Origin: Henckelia pumila | Taxonomy: Eukaryota > Streptophyta > Magnoliopsida > Lamiales > Gesneriaceae | Direction of reading: 5' to 3' | NCBI RefSeq assembly: GCF_033568475.1 | Contig: NC_133120.1 | Location: forward strand, 86,446,151 to 86,510,150 | Length of the DNA: 64,000 nucleotides | The notes under the pieces: model-generated | The model's database searches: none | Told to the model about the DNA's origin: nothing | Seen by the model: only the letters and a program-made list of their open reading frames with translations | Position numbers and translations under genes: made by a program | Part shown: one piece after another, positions 28,358 to 64,000 of the stretch | Position numbering within the stretch: position 1 is the first letter of the stretch | Layout of the letters: every line of letters begins with the position of its first letter

Positions 28358-29746
28358 GGGAGAATTACAATTTTGGTCCAATAATTTGCATATTTTCCAT
28401 TTTTGGTCCTGTTAAAAATAATTTTGTAATTTTAGTCCTGTAAGTTGCATTCTTTTTCCATTTTTGGTCCTATTAATATTAATTCGCATTTTTAGTTCTG
28501 TAACTTTCATTAATTTTTCACTTTAAGTCCTATTAACATTGAATTTATAATTTTAGTAATGTAACTTACATTTTTTTTTTCATTTTTAGTCTTTTTTGCA
28601 TTGAATTTTTACTTTTTTGTCTTGTAACTTCTATATATATTTTTTTAGTCATATTATCGATGAATTTATATTTTTAATTTCATAAATTTCATACTTTTTT
28701 ATATTTTTATTTATAATATATTATGATTTACATATTTTAAAGCTTTTAAAATTTAAATAAATTAAATAACAAAAATTCAACTAAAATTATTCAAAACAAT
28801 TTTACACTAAATATCATATTATAAAATACATAATATAAATAAAAGTATTAATATAATGTGAATCATGTTTTTTTGGGTTTAGTTTTGATATATAATATGA
28901 AATCGAAATTTTTTAATTTAAATTTTATATCCGACCAAAATTTGATTTTCGTTTCGTAATTTGTTTCTTGAGTTTGGATTTATGGTATTTTTTGTTTTAA
29001 CCAAAGCTTAAGTACTCACGTAATCTATGCTTGTCACAAACAATTTTTGATAGAAATATAAATAAAAAATAAAAAAATTACAAATTACATGGTATAAAAA
29101 TAAAAATCTGCCTTTAATATGACTAAAAATAAAAATTAAGTGTTAACAAGACCATTGAATTCCCCCTTAATATGATTAAAAATAAAATAAAATTATATGG
29201 TTCGATTTCATATTATATACATAAAAACTAAACCGAAAAATGATTCATATTAAATTAATAGTTTTATTTATATTTTGTATTTTATAAGATAATATTTAGT
29301 GTAAAAAAAATTTCGAATAATTTTTAGTTCAAAATTTTTTGTTCATTTAAATTTTAAAAGTTTTAAAATATGTAAATCATAATATATTATGAATAAAAAT
29401 ATAAAAAATATGAAATTTATTGAATTAAAAATATAAATTCATCGATAATACAACTAAAAATAAAAATATATGGAAGTTACAACATAAAAAAAAATGAAAA
29501 TTACATGTAAACTGAATTAAAAATAAAAAAGAATGCAAGTTACATTACTAAAATTGTAAATTTGATGTTAACAAGACTTAAAATAAAAATTTATGAAAGT
29601 TATAGGACTAAAAATGCGAATTCAATGTTAATAGGACCAAAAATAAAAAAATAATGTAAGTTATATGACTAAAATTATAAATTTACTTTTACCAGGACAA
29701 AAAATGGAAAATGTGCAAATTAACGTACAAAAAAATGTGCTTTTCC
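28358..29746. repeat. Long fold-back (inverted repeat) element upstream of RAD50
   Basis: Two arms of about 560 bp face each other around a loop of roughly 280 bp (about 28920-29195). The left arm starts near TTTGCATATTTTCCATTTTT; the right arm ends AATGGAAAATGTGCAAATTA, its complement. Deeper in, AATATATTATGATTTACATA on the left is matched by TATGTAAATCATAATATATT on the right. Each arm is itself built of degenerate units of about 60-70 bp with the pattern TTTTTGGTCCTATTAA..TTTTAGTCCTGTAACTT. No coding capacity. It ends under 200 bp before the RAD50 ATG. Likely a fold-back transposon, possibly Mutator-like; target duplications not resolved. Confidence 0.85.
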
Positions 29747-51135: not shown

Positions 51136-51787
51136 AAATGAAAAAAATTCTCAAATATATAAAATAGAATTGTACTCTAGGACTCAATGAAAATAGTGTC
51201 AAATATATAAATACATGAGATGTGGATATATAAAAAAAAGATTAAAATGAAATAAAAACTAATAGAGCCATAAGTTTTATTGATGCCTAAATTAATGATG
51301 ACTTAGATTCAACAGTTGGTATCGTGCAAGTGACTTGCATTGCATGAATATAATTAATGGCAATAAAATTTGCTAACCATCGTTTATAATAATATTGTTC
51401 GATCGTTCATGAGATCTGAATCTATTTTATACAGTGTATATATATTATATAATATATTATTTGGATGATCGTCCACTTTAAATAAAAAACATATACAGAA
51501 TTTTTATCTTTAATTTATAATATATTTTATTTTTTTCAAATATTAAATTCCGTTCTATGCCTTCGGTCTATAGAGTAATGCAAGATCTAGAGTTCCATTT
51601 TAATTTAATCGTATGGAGTTTATTTTTTGTTTTGATCCCACTCGATAACATTACAAATGAGTCCTTAGATAGTTAGATCTAGTATTAGAGAAATCATCAT
51701 ATTACCGACAACTTAATCTTTATACACACGGGTTGATTAATTTAAGTGGATTGATTATTATTATTATTATTATTCGATCACTATATA

Positions 51788-52026
51788 GGCACCGTTTGGT
51801 TTGAATGATAGAATAAGTAATCCATAGATAAGTAATATAATGTAAATTAAAAATAAATAAAAATAGTTAATACATTATTTGATTTGATAGATAGATTATA
51901 ATTTATTTTATTTAATTGATGTAAAATTATTAATTAATAAATAGATAAATAATATGACGAAAATAAGACAAAATTCATTGGGATAAGTTATACATAGATT
52001 AATAATACATCAAACCAAACAATGCC
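51788..52026 (-). mobile_element. Tourist-like MITE, copy 2
   Basis: Terminal inverted repeats GGCACCGTTTGGTTTGA and, on the other strand, GGCATTGTTTGGTTTGATG. 239 bp, non-coding. Its interior matches the other copies in reverse complement (GATAGATTATAATTTATTT), hence the minus orientation relative to copies 1 and 3. Confidence 0.8.
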
Positions 52027-52050
52027 TATAGAGTATAGAGTGTACATTAA

Positions 52051-52395
52051 GGCACCGTTCTGTTCACCATATTACTAATTTCTCATCATGTTATTTATCC
52101 ATATATTAACTATTTATTTTACATCAATCAAATCATTAATTATTTATCTCATATCAATCAAATCATTAAATTCAAATCACTATATTACCCCTTATAAATA
52201 ATATAATTTTTATTTTATTTATTGTTAAAGGACAAAATAGTCATTTAATATTTTTATATAAAATTTAATAAATCAAATCAAATAAATCATAATCTATCAA
52301 TCAAATCCAATACCATTTTTTAACTATAATTTCTTATTTATTTTTTATTTTATATATATATATTACTTATATCATACATCAAACCAAACGATGCT
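52051..52395 (+). mobile_element. Tourist-like MITE, copy 3
   Basis: Ends GGCACCGTTCTGTTCAC and, on the other strand, AGCATCGTTTGGTTTGATG. TAA lies on both sides (52048-52050 and 52396-52398), the TWA duplication typical of PIF/Harbinger. 345 bp. It shares the internal ATAATCTATCAATCAAAT block with copy 1 and sits 24 bases from copy 2. Confidence 0.8.
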
Positions 52396-52399
52396 TAAG

Positions 52400-56252: not shown

Positions 56253-58018
56253 GGTAAGATAAAAAAAAAAAAAGTGCATCGAGAAGACAATATATTTATA
56301 TCAGTATTCGTGGTTTATTTCGAATCTTGCTGGAATTTTTTTATGAGATTCTGTTGGTTTCTTGGGTTAAACTTTTGAATGATGAATAAGTTGAAGAGTG
56401 AGTAATGAAAGTGTACTTATTTTTCATTCATTTGTTGTGTTTGAGTATGATGGTAACTGAACTGTAGGTTTATTATTGCTTTGATATATTTCTAAATAAA
56501 TATGTTAGATTCATGTTTCCTCATGATGATGAAGAATTTCAACCAGAAAAATGAAAAGTTTGTACTGATTTATAAAATAGTTTGATACGGACCACTAAAT
56601 AAATCGAGATTTGCGGGAGGTCTCTTTTATTCATATATGGAATTATATTAGTCATTAGATATTAGACTCCATTAATTTGATAATTTTTTTGGTAAAATTT
56701 AATCCTGTTTATTTGATTAAAAATGGATTAATTTTTAAATTCGATCCTTTCTGACTGGTCGCACTCGCATGACTCGAATCTGGATGGAAAGCTAAAATCT
56801 GGGCCTCACAAGCATATTGAATTAGTGAGAATAGTGAAACAAGATCAACTTCACTTTATGCTCCAAATAAATTACGTTTCATATTGCTTGTAGTCTTGCA
56901 CCATGCTACTCGAGTTTGATCCGATTTTAATTTTTCCTTCAAGAACTCGATCAAGGAATCAACTTCATGATCGAGCTCGACTGTGTACATATCAAGTTAC
57001 TCCATTTCGAACTCAAAAAAAAAAAAATATTAAAATTGAGTGATTTTATTATTTATGTTATATAATTCTAAATAAATAAATATTATATATATTCGAGTTT
57101 AATACTGATTAAAGTAAAAATTCGAGTCACTCGAACATGATCAAATCAAGTTGAAGTCGATTTTTAATTGAATTATTTAAGTGTTGCTCACAAATAATAT
57201 AATTTGACTCATTTCATCTTTCCTTAGTAAATGGTAAATTTAAAAATCTACGGCCTTCAATATTTTGTTACTCAGGGGGTTGAGAAATCTTAAAAGAGAA
57301 AAAGTCAATGCTCAATTTAAGTTTGTATTCATAGTGGGTCACTCTCATTTACCACTAGATCTGCCATCTTCAGCTTAGTAGGTGTAAATATTACCATATT
57401 CCCTCCAAACTCATTAATGATCATTCCATTGGGGTCATCGAGATGTGATGCATGAGAAATCTTTTACAAAAGTTTTGTTATTGTAGTGTATTTATAACTT
57501 TAACATTTCGAAACAAATTTACTTTTCCCAAAAATTTTGGATTCCTTAATGGAAGCAATTGCTCTTTTCTGTAAAATGCAATTGGTTCGTTTAATTTTTT
57601 GGTATTAGATGGGGTACAAATGATAAATCAACTTCAAGTACAAACTTGAATAAAAAATTGAAAGAAAATAACCACATTTATTTTTATTTTTTTTGAAAAC
57701 AAAATAACCACATTTATAATCAAATAATGTTTCATATATGGATCGTTCACACCCGTGCTATATTTACCCTTATTTAGTAGAAAAATACTATTCTTAAATG
57801 AATTTTAAATAAATAAATAATGTAAAATCTTCAAGTACACATCAAATAACATTGATTGGGTGCCACCGACGAGAAACATGACCCCTCAAGCAAAGATCAA
57901 AGGCCAATGGTCACCATTTTCACATTGAATGCCAAAGCTTTCATTTCACCGATTGCCACAAACACATCTCTCAAGCAAATCAAGAATCGAGTCAACTAAC
58001 TCTCTAGCTACGCACAAA
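56253..58018. other. SAHH 3' UTR and spacer before RALF
   Basis: The first 250 bases are probably the SAHH 3' UTR. From about 56750 to 57190 there are decayed CTCGA/TCGAG-rich words as in the 49135-49570 element. The last several hundred bases presumably hold the RALF promoter. No other gene. Confidence 0.4.
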
Positions 58019-58396
58019 ATGCCCAGCTCTCAGCTGCACATCCTTCTTCTCTCCATACTATTGCTGCCATGTTTCTTTCACAGTCAAGCGGGAATCTGTG
58101 AAGGGGTCTCGTTTCTTGATCCGAATGCAGCCAAATCGAGTGAAATGGCGAAGAGGGTGTATGCAGAAAAGATTGGCGAAATGGGTGGATTGGAAGGGGA
58201 GATGGAGATGGATTCCGAGAGCAATCGAAGGACTCTGTTGATGCAGAGAAGATTCATAAGTTACGACACTTTGATGAGGGATTTGGTGCCTTGCAACAAG
58301 CCCGGAGCTTCTTATTACAACTGCAGGGATCCAGGTACGGCTAATTTTTATAACAGAGGCTGCGAGGTGATCACGAGGTGTGGAAGGGGAGATTAG
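58019..58396 (+). CDS. RALF (rapid alkalinization factor) peptide precursor
   Basis: Single exon, 125 aa. Residues 1-27 are a signal peptide (MPSSQLHILLLSILLLPCFF..). A pro-region ends at the subtilase site R70-R71-T72-L73 (RRTL, the RRXL site cut by S1P). The mature peptide holds FISYDTLMRDLVPC, the YISY-type receptor-binding motif, and four cysteines at 92, 102, 115 and 121 in the RALF spacing. RALFs are secreted, bind FERONIA-type receptor kinases and LRX or COBRA-like partners, and raise apoplastic pH to restrain growth. I chose ATG 58019 because it starts the signal peptide; an in-frame ATG at 57929 would add 30 polar residues in front of it. The position next to SAHH matches Arabidopsis RALFL31 (At4g13950, from memory), so RALFL31-like is likely. 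Confidence 0.93.
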   Translation: MPSSQLHILLLSILLLPCFFHSQAGICEGVSFLDPNAAKSSEMAKRVYAEKIGEMGGLEGEMEMDSESNRRTLLMQRRFISYDTLMRDLVPCNKPGASYYNCRDPGTANFYNRGCEVITRCGRGD

Positions 58397-59706: not shown

Positions 59707-60281
59707 CTCATGTGAGACGGTTTTATGGGTCAATTTCGTGAGACAAATCTCTTATTTGGGTTATTGGGGAAAATTGCATATATAACCCCTGTAAAATCCC
59801 GAGTTTGCTAATAACTCCCTATAAAATTAAGCTAATAACCCCTGTGATTCAAAATTTGTAGCATACACACCCTTTTCAGTTAAAAATTGACAAAAATACC
59901 CTTACTTAAATAAATAATTAAATTAATTTTGTTTTATAATTCTATATTTAATTGAGTAAAATAATCAAATTTTATTTAAATAACTATGAAAATTATATAT
60001 AATTATTTTATCATAATATTTGTCATACACGAAATATATTTTAATATTAAATTGTATTATAACATTAAGGGCATTTTAGTCATTTTTTAGCCAGAAGGGG
60101 GTGTATGCTACAGATTTAGAATCATAAGGGGCTTTTAGCTCAAAAAAATTTCACAGGGGTTATCAGCCAACACGCGATTTCACAAGGGTGATATATGCAA
60201 TTTCCCATTTTTATTATAAATATGGGTAATGTTGACTCGTCTCACAGATAATAATCCGTAAGACCGTTTCACAAGAGACAT
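59707..60281. mobile_element. Outer MITE of the GTGAGACGGTCTCAC type, split by another element
   Basis: The left part TCATGTGAGACGGTTTTATG with CAATTTCGTGAGACAAATCT (59707-59766) and the right part (60207-60281), which on the other strand reads TCTCTTGTGAAACGGTCTTA and CTGTGAGACGAGTCAACATT, are the two halves of a repeat I know to be common in dicot genomes. They are separated by the element at 59767-60206. Confidence 0.65.
59767..60206. mobile_element. Long-TIR MITE inserted in the outer MITE
   Basis: Left end GGGAAAATTGCATATATAAC; the right end in reverse complement is GGGAAATTGCATATATCACC. The match extends about 110 bp inward (TAATAACCCCTGTGATTC against TGATAACCCCTGTGAAAT, GTAGCATACACACCC against GTAGCATACACCCCC). 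440 bp, non-coding, A/T-rich middle. Probably Mutator-like or fold-back; target duplication not clear. Confidence 0.75.
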
Positions 60282-61399: not shown

Positions 61400-61880
61400 T
61401 CTGATGATAAAAAGCACCTCTTTCGAAAAATTGTTTCTTGATCAATCATCAATGGAGGAGTTGAAAAAGCTGTTTCTTTCTTCTTTTTTGGCAAATCAGG
61501 TACATCCCTTCGATGGATTTTGTCGAGAATCAATCCATTGTTCTTGCAGCGTCGATGGATCTTTCGGAGAATTCAAGTGTCGATGGATCTTCTGGAGAAT
61601 TCAAGCGATCTTCAAGACTTAATATTGATCGGTATTCTAGTAAAACCCTTTAAAATCAGTAAAACATATAATGATATCTTTCTTATTGAAATCCGAAAAC
61701 ATCTTTCAATGTGAAACAATACCTTCCCACAAACAAAGAGCATATATTGGGAATAGTTGGCTCGTGCAATGGCCTGGTTTGTTTCCTGGTAAAAGCCCGA
61801 TTACCAGTCTATAGATTTGAAGTGACGGTTTGCGTATACAACCCATTAACGTGTGAATATGTAGAGATTCCATAACCATG
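61400..61880 (+). pseudogene. F-box-associated (FBA) protein gene fragment
   Basis: The plus-strand frame 61732-61875 reads HILGIVGSCNGLVCFLVK and CVYNPLTCEYVEIP and then stops. This is the conserved start of the F-box-associated domain (I-x-GSCNGL-(V/L)C .. NP-x-T-x-EY-x-x-(I/L)P). No intact F-box frame was found upstream; instead there is a 28-base tandem duplication (TCGATGGATCTTTCGGAGAA) at 61551-61606. Plant F-box genes multiply and decay quickly, so this is probably a broken copy. Confidence 0.6.
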
Positions 61881-61956
61881 CGTAGAACTGCGTAGAACTT
61901 GATGTTTTTCGTGGATCGTCATTTGGATTTGGTTGTAGATGAGCTTAGATCACAAA

Positions 61957-62276
61957 ACATTGAAACTCTTCTACTTCTTACGCATATTCGGTCCCCTGTT
62001 TTGAACATGAACATTTGATGTTCAAAATTATAAACAGTGATCAGATGAGAGAAAATGAATCAAACTTGTTTAGGACATTCACAGTCTACCAAGTCGATCA
62101 AATAATATGAATAAAATGTAATATTCTAATGAAGTATTTGAAAAATAGTTTCTATTTAAGCGGCTAAAAGCAAAGCAGATAAATGTCTTTGTTAAAGATG
62201 TGGCTCAGATGAAAAACATCAGAACTCTTCTACTTTCTAGGCATCTTCGATTCCCTGTTTTAAATATCAAAATAAA
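61957..62276. repeat. Two diverged direct repeats 259 bases apart
   Basis: ACATTGAAACTCTTCTACTT with CGCATATTCGGTCCCCTGTT (from 61957) is repeated as ACATCAGAACTCTTCTACTT with GGCATCTTCGATTCCCTGTT (from 62216). Roughly 80% alike over 60 bases. Function unknown; perhaps decayed remains of duplicated exons of the F-box-like gene. Confidence 0.6.
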
Positions 62277-62349
62277 AAGTTGTTGGATGAGAAAAAACGA
62301 ACCAAAACATTCATTGTGTTAATGACGACTGCTTACATACCTCTCGTAC

Positions 62350-63270
62350 CCCTCTATTGGCATTTCTGCCGAAAATTCATATGTTTTCTCAAAATCAGCA
62401 CGAGCAACGTGCAAGTGATATTTAATTCGGATCAGGCATGGATATCCTGATAAGCTGGAAATTTGACTATTTGTCAAAAACATAATATATTCATTATCAT
62501 TTACTTGACTTTATAATCATTCCAACAACTCACTTGAATTCGCGATCGATGAAGAAGAGGTGTCCCAACCTTGGCACAAATCCAAGCAAGTGTCGTGGGT
62601 TCTCCGGGCACATATCAGCAAGCAATTGCTTCTACAAGTTTCAAAAAATGAAATTTAATTTTTATTAAAGGAAAAATAAGTCAAATCAAACTATTTTTGA
62701 CACGAAATCACACATCAACTATAGTTCAGAACTGTAGCCTTCTGCGATACATTATTGAACACGAAACACTCGTCGAACCATGTCCCGCTGACCACTTCCT
62801 CCTTGTGTTCAGCAAGATTGACCAAAGCTGTTTTATTTGCGTTGCTCTGCGATAAGAAACACTCAATTACCATTGAAATCCATAAAAATTTTAAAGGAAC
62901 ATGACGAAGACTATTACCTCGAGCTTGTATATGTGTAACGATGATTCAGTAGACATCGCCACGAAGCGTCCACCACGAGCCCAGTAAATGTTTTGCGACC
63001 ACGTAGCCGAACAAATTTTCAAGCCGTCACCGTAACACAAAAAAAACATTAATTTTGGAGTTGTATTTTACCCGCTTTAACTTTCAGATTGACTGACCGT
63101 ATAGTGATAGATCCATCCCAGTCATAGATAGTAAGAGTGTCATCTGGCGGGTACCCAAGAAGGTACCGCCGTATATGTGCTTGGCCAAGAAGTCTAGATG
63201 AATGATATTTTTATCCTGCAAATTCTTCAGTTAGCTTTTTCTTGTCATTTCAATGACTAGATAAAGAAGA
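62350..63270 (-). pseudogene. Coatomer beta'-subunit (COPB2)-like gene fragment, minus-strand copy
   Basis: In order on the minus strand, exon-like pieces match the middle of beta'-COP (WD40 protein of COPI vesicle coats, Golgi): 63210-63078 (YDWDGSITIRSVNL), 62999-62918 (NIYWARGGRFVAMSTESSLH with IYKLE and a donor GT), 62853-62731 (LAEHKEEVVSGTWFDECFVF), 62637-62533 (GFVPRLGHLFFIDREFK) and 62457-62350 (HLHVARADFEKTYEFSAEMP). These align with the known order ..FYDWA..IRRIDV, NLYWADSGDLVAI, VWVGDCFIYNN, LLGYLANQSRVYLIDKEF, LVMRGDLERANEILP. Divergence is high and one exon has a frame change relative to the facing copy, so I call it a decayed paralogue fragment. Neither end of a full gene is present. 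Confidence 0.7.
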
Positions 63271-64000
63271 GGAACGACCAAAGAAAGCTTGAAATCGGGT
63301 TTTGGCGGTGCTTTCGATGTAGTTAGAAACAACACGTTTAAGATTTCGATTTCCTCCCTCGATTTCAAGGTTTCTTTGGTCGTTCCTCTTCTTTTTCTAT
63401 ACTCATTGAAATGACAAGAAAAAGCTGACAGAAGAATTTGCAGTAGAAAAATACCATTCATCTAGACTTCTTGGCCGAGCACATATACGGGCATACGGCG
63501 GTACCTTCTTGGGTTTCCGTCCAGATGACATCGTTACTTTCTACGACTGGGATGGATCTATCGCTATACGGCTAGTCAATTTGGACGTTAGATTAAGTAA
63601 CATACAACTCCAAAATTAAGGTTTTTTTGTTACGATGACAACTTGATAATTTGTTCGGCTACGTAACATTTATTAGGCTCGTGGATGACGCTTCATGGTG
63701 ATGACTGTTGAATCATCGCTGCACATATACAAGCTCGAGGTAATAGTATTGATCATGTTCCTTTCAATTTTTTTGGATTTCAATGGTAATTGAGTGTTTC
63801 TTATCGCAGAACAACGCAAAGGTCTTGCTGAACACAAGGAGTAAGCGGTCAGCGGGACATGGTTCGACGAGTGTTTCGTGTTCAATAATGTATCACAGAA
63901 GCTGCAGTTCTGCCCTATAGTTGATGTGTGATTTCGTGTCAAAAATAGTTTGATTTGACTTATTTTTTCTTTAATAAAAATTAAATTTCATTTTTTGAAA
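62640..64000. repeat. Large inverted duplication (palindrome) centred near 63328
   Basis: The left arm (about 62640-63297) and right arm (63359-64000, open at the edge) are reverse complements, roughly 85-90% alike by eye, with a 61-base spacer. At the inner edge CTTGAAATCG faces CGATTTCAAGG and AGGAACGACCAAAGAAA faces TTTCTTTGGTCGTTCCT. At the outer edge TAAGTCAAATCAAACTATTT (left) faces AAATAGTTTGATTTGACTTA (right). The arms contain the COPB2-like fragments. Confidence 0.88.
63298..64000 (+). pseudogene. COPB2-like gene fragment, plus-strand inverted copy (cut by window edge)
   Basis: Mirror image of the preceding fragment. The plus strand reads AHIRAYGGTFLGFRPDDIVT, then FYDWDGSIAIRLVNLDV at about 63478-63590, then a decayed version of the YWARGGRF exon near 63680-63740 with an in-frame TAG in place of the Trp codon, then the QSNANKTALV-type exon near 63805-63920 with changes. 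Left of the palindrome arm (63298-63358) it carries extra sequence resembling the KIKIFSKNF part of beta'-COP. It continues beyond 64000. Confidence 0.65.

Follow-up and report, generated by a model that had tools for sequence, protein, structure and literature searches.

We found that the palindrome at the right edge of the window, the 64,000-nucleotide stretch of Henckelia pumila DNA analysed here (C1:86446151-86510150, C1 being NC_133120.1 in a genome of 884.7 Mb on 133 contigs), is real, somewhat old and ordinary in kind. It is called locus 1 or palindrome 1 below. Both of its arms carry fragments similar to the gene for beta'-COP (COPB2), and it belongs to a cluster of such copies. The cluster is probably a local group of neutrally decayed pseudogene fragments from a diverged, intron-bearing COPB2 paralogue, most likely non-coding and without an evolved job.

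A head-to-head inverted duplication and additional copying nearby, all at roughly the same time, would have produced at least five pieces, namely two palindromes and one extra fragment, all of which would then have decayed neutrally. Later, an LTR retrotransposon would have entered the right arm of palindrome 1, and gene conversion would have homogenised about 460 bp of the two arms, in either order. Any transcript through the spacer would fold back on itself as a long hairpin, and the siRNAs diced from it would match mainly the cluster itself. The palindrome would thus be at most a source of self-targeting siRNAs.

Anatomy of palindrome 1 and its retrotransposon

An alignment of the in-window part of locus 1 (62639-64000) with its reverse complement, 1411 columns long, showed 83.3% identity with gaps counted (1466 bits); for the inner palindrome, 62418-64221, the figure was 86.1%. 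The fuller inner arms share 89.8% substitution-only identity over 889 aligned bases. The sequence-only reading had described an inverted duplication of beta'-COP-like fragments with arms of at least 640 bp around a 61-base spacer. Self-alignment and exon matches in both arms confirm the duplication, and the palindrome stands as described except for its extent, which is larger: it runs from 62418 to 64221 plus outer flanks, around a spacer of 62 nt (Table 1). The left arm extends leftwards to about 61583; in full, the arms measure about 1.6-1.7 kb.

Table 1. Features of palindrome 1 by window position.
Feature	Position	Strand	Basis or remark
Outer left arm, flank common to right arm beyond retrotransposon, with weak exon 5 match	61583..62417	-	alignment
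Inner left arm, beta'-COP-like exons 4, 3, 2, 1	62418..63297	-	self-alignment, exon matches
Spacer, 62 nt, shortened remnant of exon 0 of right copy	63298..63359	+	inverted-repeat pair; translation; exon 0 fuller at locus 2
Inner right arm to window edge	63360..64000	+	self-alignment; continues to about 64220 equivalent (C1:86510370)
Exon 4, left copy	62534..62632	-	no frame lesion
Exon 3, left copy	62714..62846	-	1-nt insertion, one stop
Exon 2, left copy	62918..62992	-	no frame lesion, acceptor site doubtful
Exon 1, left copy	63082..63215	-	1-nt deletion
Exon 1, right copy	63444..63586	+	first codon a stop, 8-nt insertion
Exon 2, right copy	63665..63739	+	two stops
Exon 3, right copy	63810..63925	+	16-nt deletion, one stop
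Putative conversion tract, left-arm partner	62410..62883	-	ends uncertain by 50-80 bases
Putative conversion tract, right arm	~63774 to about insertion site (64220 equivalent)		ends uncertain by 50-80 bases
26-nt identical segment, left copy	62910..62935	-	
26-nt identical segment, right copy	63722..63747	+	
22-nt identical segment, left copy	62746..62767	-	
22-nt identical segment, right copy	63873..63894	+	

Extension to the right, which the same reading had proposed as a check, carried the palindrome past the window edge to C1:86510370, where the right arm halts at a repeat of 1.2-1.3 kb. A second copy of this repeat, 96% alike, lies about 6 kb further on (C1:86516334-86517621). Directly after it the sequence of the left-arm outer flank resumes as its reverse complement (C1:86517622-86518351), and the right arm thereby gains a further 730 bp and ends at C1:86518351. 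The intervening segment of about 7.25 kb (C1:86510370-86517621) is an LTR retrotransposon that splits the right arm. Its edges read AAATA / TGTAG...CTACA / AAATA, with AAATA as the target duplication, and the left arm keeps the empty site. The LTRs, the duplication and the empty site together indicate that the element inserted into a right arm that already existed. The two LTRs differ at 38/1224 aligned sites (3.1%). Between them lies an open frame of 1254 residues on the minus strand, which we take to be the gag-pol of a Ty3/gypsy-type element. Judged from this orientation alone, the left (3') LTR of the element could read out into palindrome 1.

About 3-4 kb to the left of the palindrome, the window also holds an open RALF peptide-hormone gene (57929-58396, plus strand; PF05498, E 1.2e-26).

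Origin and decay of the beta'-COP-like copies

The comparison of the arms with the COPB2 gene of the same genome, also called for by the sequence-only reading, matched the exons of the copies one by one to the canonical gene on contig C2. On raw DNA, exons 0 to 4 of the arms match the frames of that gene, with a best exon match of E 5e-8 for locus 1 (2.7e-8 in a smaller search) and 7e-11 for locus 2, the second palindrome (C1:86583380-86585688). The borders and introns of exons 1-4 coincide with those of the canonical gene when the borders are read by eye, and exon 5 gave a weak match (E 1.8e-4) in a search confined to three short stretches. For PF04053, the second COPA/B beta-propeller, raw locus 2 DNA scored 31.6 bits and composite peptides of the arm exons 30.7 and 22.2 bits, all under the cut-off of 57, and the consensus of exons 1-4 over the copies reached 73.4 bits, above it. 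A PDB search with a blended arm peptide matched beta'-COP chains (best E 2.6e-9). The recognised exons come from the middle of the gene only, a full-length open coding sequence is absent, and each of the five copies has at least one frameshift or stop. These matches mark the copies as DNA-level, intron-bearing duplicates from the middle of a diverged beta'-COP paralogue. A retrocopy is ruled out by the introns present in the copies.

A whole-genome search with PF04053 found eight places, seven on C2 and the eighth at locus 2. Three of the seven form a multi-exon gene at C2:150.378 Mb, taken as the canonical beta'-COP (COPB2) gene, and the other four are presumably alpha-COP genes or remnants. 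The same search showed two adjoining, perhaps broken copies at C2:131.276-131.286 Mb, which are alpha-COP-like and which we assume to be alpha-COP.

DNA searches of the genome returned nine matches with the locus 1 query and eleven with the locus 2 query, all in the cluster at C1:86.508-86.586 Mb. A protein search gave 13 matches and placed the family in the cluster only; it missed the canonical gene, so equally distant relatives could be missed too. Within these DNA and protein searches, no copy was found outside the cluster. Besides palindrome 1 the cluster contains the second inverted pair and a fifth fragment (C1:86518383-86518627), all within 78 kb, and the two palindromes lie about 75 kb apart. 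The arms of locus 2 are 78.5% alike with gaps. At its centre (C1:86584783-86584921) each arm has an upstream exon piece that points inwards, opposite in orientation to exon 0, and forms a nested fold-back, which suggests that some rearrangement may predate the inversion. When the surroundings of the fifth fragment were used as the query, hits to an unrelated repeat dominated, and this search is uninformative on the COPB2-like family. This very high-copy dispersed repeat starts at C1:86519622, is preceded by a perfectly self-complementary stretch of 60 bp, and gave 1718 first-look candidates, of which 40 were scored.

Built by majority from four to five copies, the consensus of exons 1-4 has an open frame of 146 codons. 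Such a consensus masks private lesions by design; lesions common to most copies would appear in it, and none does in exons 1-4. Among 18 listed indels and stops, 16 are frameshifts or stops, and not one of these 16 is common to two copies. The open consensus and the private lesions indicate that the visible decay came after the duplication, which is the reverse of the order proposed by the sequence-only reading, where an already decayed paralogue had been inverted later. The duplicated unit may nevertheless have been a truncated gene already. By eye, the exon 2 acceptor is doubtful in two copies, and a frameshift common to the copies is suspected in an exon-6-like stretch of the flank.

Changes from the consensus comprise 27 synonymous and 67 non-synonymous substitutions, with an expected neutral synonymous share of 0.24-0.26 (ambiguous consensus positions excluded). 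Substitutions since the duplication look close to neutral. When changes were polarised by majority, C>T-type changes were found at 20/263 CG, 20/196 CHG and 31/879 CHH sites, and A/T transitions at 36/2071. The excess at CG and CHG is a sign of earlier methylation, compatible with a dead pseudogene and with an siRNA locus alike.

Divergence of the arms and age of the inversion

Uncorrected divergence was compared across the four arms, left and right of locus 1 and both of locus 2. The five arm pairs other than the own pair of locus 1 differ by 11.5-14.3% on either side of alignment column 470. The left and right arms of locus 1 differ by 14.0% (50/357) near the centre, by 5.4% (27/501) farther out and again by 14.1% (102/725) beyond the retrotransposon; the contrast within locus 1 was reached in 0/2000 permutations. 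A two-boundary scan delimited a low-divergence tract of about 460 bp, with 4.6% divergence (21/457 inside vs 151/1113 outside), a value reached in 0/100 permutations. The tract covers right-arm positions 415-871, and the range of its outer boundary, 814-937, includes the insertion at 861. It is best read as the product of gene conversion from arm to arm, ending where the insertion breaks homology, or there by chance. The position of the retrotransposon near the outer edge of the tract makes it unusually informative.

Palindrome 2 may descend from palindrome 1 or may have a separate origin, a question on which the grouping of the arms bears. Over its whole length, informative sites support grouping by locus, by side and crossed grouping at 12 : 5 : 2. 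Before column 470, outside the tract, the figures are 2 : 4 : 1; among the four by-side sites is column 76, which falls in the poorly aligned centre. With a split at column 500, the difference in the distribution of sites has a Fisher P of 0.045.

The arms of locus 1 therefore look close largely because of the conversion-like tract. Since its inner arms and outer flank are as diverged as arms that lie 75 kb apart, the inversion is not especially young, and the youth claimed for it by the sequence-only reading is not supported, just one tract being close. More generally, a close match between arms does not date an inversion, as a conversion-like tract near a retrotransposon can lend an older palindrome a recent appearance. 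Comparison of the wider segment (27/501) with the LTRs (38/1224) gave P 0.036; taken naively, this would date the segment to before the insertion. Compared over about 250 bases, among them those of the poorly aligned centre, the fifth fragment is 14-20% diverged from the arms, more than most arm pairs are, and it is for this piece that duplication at about one time is least secure.

Hairpin potential and competing explanations

The palindrome is a long inverted repeat predicted to be able to form long double-stranded RNA. The 1361-nt in-window transcript would fold end to end as one long hairpin at -931.8 kcal/mol (a value without a shuffle control), as the sequence-only reading had expected. 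Perfect inter-arm runs of at least 21 bp number 13 at locus 1, with a total of 447 bp, and eight at locus 2. All four arms share two identical segments, 26 and 22 nt long. With gaps collapsed, the longest such run has P ~0.05 and two such runs P ~0.02 under three shuffling nulls, which is no more than suggestive of a conserved small-RNA island or a small constrained segment and counts against a purely dead pseudogene.

COPB2 or its paralogues had been named as possible targets of small RNAs from the arms. We compared the 1784 arm 21-mers with the canonical COPB2 stretch, introns included (local stretches L020, 2401-10000, and L061). On the two strands, 13 and 21 of them lie within four mismatches; the reversed controls gave 5 and 2, and four shuffles of single bases gave 20, 6, 3 and 6. 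This exceeds most controls, as real distant homology would. None of the 1784 has fewer than three mismatches to the canonical stretch, and one shuffle reached two. The printed 21-mers with three mismatches are A/T-rich or T-rich, and the printed ones in exon 1 have four. For the 26-nt segment no site was found outside the cluster within three mismatches; the 22-nt segment has three outside sites at three mismatches, where its backward control has 37. For the other segments of the arms, the two DNA similarity searches provided the check. In 27,900 bases from three stretches at the cluster, there was no match to an Rfam family. With no close paralogue found outside the cluster in the DNA and protein searches either, the proposed targets, and trans-silencing of COPB2 by the arms, are unsupported by these comparisons.

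Ordinary pseudogene palindromes and inverted segmental duplicates show private lesions, near-neutral substitutions and homogenised arms. The present cluster shares all three features with them and does not differ in principle. Inverted duplication is also an accepted route by which plant MIRNA genes arise, and a young MIRNA gene is expected to show a 21-nt island standing in drifted flanks. Locus 1 is likewise an inverted duplicate of a (pseudo)gene fragment, but no target family was found for it, and its closest stretch is conversion-like and hundreds of bases long. Its architecture resembles both the inverted-duplication model and the endogenous inverted-repeat loci of Arabidopsis. Overlap of pseudogene-related miRNA genes with inverted duplications exceeds chance in Arabidopsis (P 0.03; PMC3237417). 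Endogenous inverted repeats there feed DCL2, DCL3 and DCL4 without RDR, and precursor RNA has been shown for both IR71 and IR2039 and siRNAs for IR71 (PMC4687873). Palindrome 1 is similar in being a long inverted repeat with a possible single long hairpin transcript, whereas it is known from DNA alone and its arms are 5-14% apart. The soybean I locus is also made up of locally clustered, rearranged copies from a single gene family; its CHS gene repeats spawn RNAi with a phenotype (PMC6710647), while the cluster described here is known as DNA only and has no known close functional relative.

A less likely explanation is a working long-hairpin locus of the endoIR-siRNA type, in which a spacer transcript would form a duplex cut by DCL enzymes into 21-, 22- and 24-nt siRNAs that silence and methylate the cluster, possibly driven by LTR read-out. 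The near-complete predicted fold and its perfect runs agree with this, as do the 3' LTR, which would point into the palindrome given the minus-strand gag-pol-like frame, and the C>T excess at CG and CHG sites. Long inverted repeats that supply siRNAs without RDR and LTR read-out into neighbouring DNA have both been described (PMC4687873 and PMC3134107, respectively). On the other side, any methylated pseudogene would be just as likely to show the same spectrum, and the 14%-diverged parts of the hairpin are broken by many mismatches. A related and rather improbable possibility is self-extinction: siRNAs from the palindrome hairpin would have silenced and methylated every copy of a diverged COPB2 paralogue that was otherwise intact, and the copies would then have decayed neutrally; LTR read-out may still drive the hairpin, and the two identical segments would be residual siRNA hot spots. 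The palindrome offers a natural test case of whether a gene family can be driven extinct by its own inverted duplication through self-silencing, because the open-frame ancestor appears to have left decayed copies only.

We consider it very improbable that the locus is a young MIRNA or trans-acting siRNA gene aimed at COPB2 or paralogues. The accepted route of origin, the two short segments identical in four arms and the near-matching 21-mers in excess of most controls speak for such a gene, but the mismatch counts, the base composition of the best 21-mers, the outside sites of the two segments and the Rfam result all argue against it, as does the lack of a close paralogue in our searches. Capture of a gene fragment by a foldback transposable element is slightly less probable still. 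The window does contain two other inverted repeats longer than 400 bp, both dispersed and high-copy; these serve as positive controls, giving 840 and 896 first-look candidates, while the COPB2-like palindromes gave four and three, all in one cluster. Copy number and location led us to reject the foldback explanation, and no terminal repeats or target duplication were noticed by eye at the arm ends. Fold-back reads can create inverted repeats in an assembly, but such an artefact is scarcely credible for arms that differ by 5-14% and carry private indels, where one arm but not the other contains a retrotransposon flanked by a target duplication, and where a second palindrome has a separate centre. 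We retain the reading of a neutrally decayed pseudogene cluster and infer that it has no evolved function, with the reservation that the methylation-like spectrum would fit an active siRNA locus too.

The larger of the two dispersed elements is a foldback-like element of 1363 bp (window 28371-29733; 840 candidates, 40 scored) with 557-bp arms that are 83% alike. Among its scored copies, several on C2 at about 22.33-22.37 Mb are spaced at steps of about 4.36 kb, as if in a tandem array. The smaller, at 59768-60206, is a palindromic MITE-like element of 439 bp (896 candidates, 40 scored at 93-100%). A shorter inverted repeat with arms of about 140 bp, 75% alike, lies at 51786-52397 (E 4e-18).
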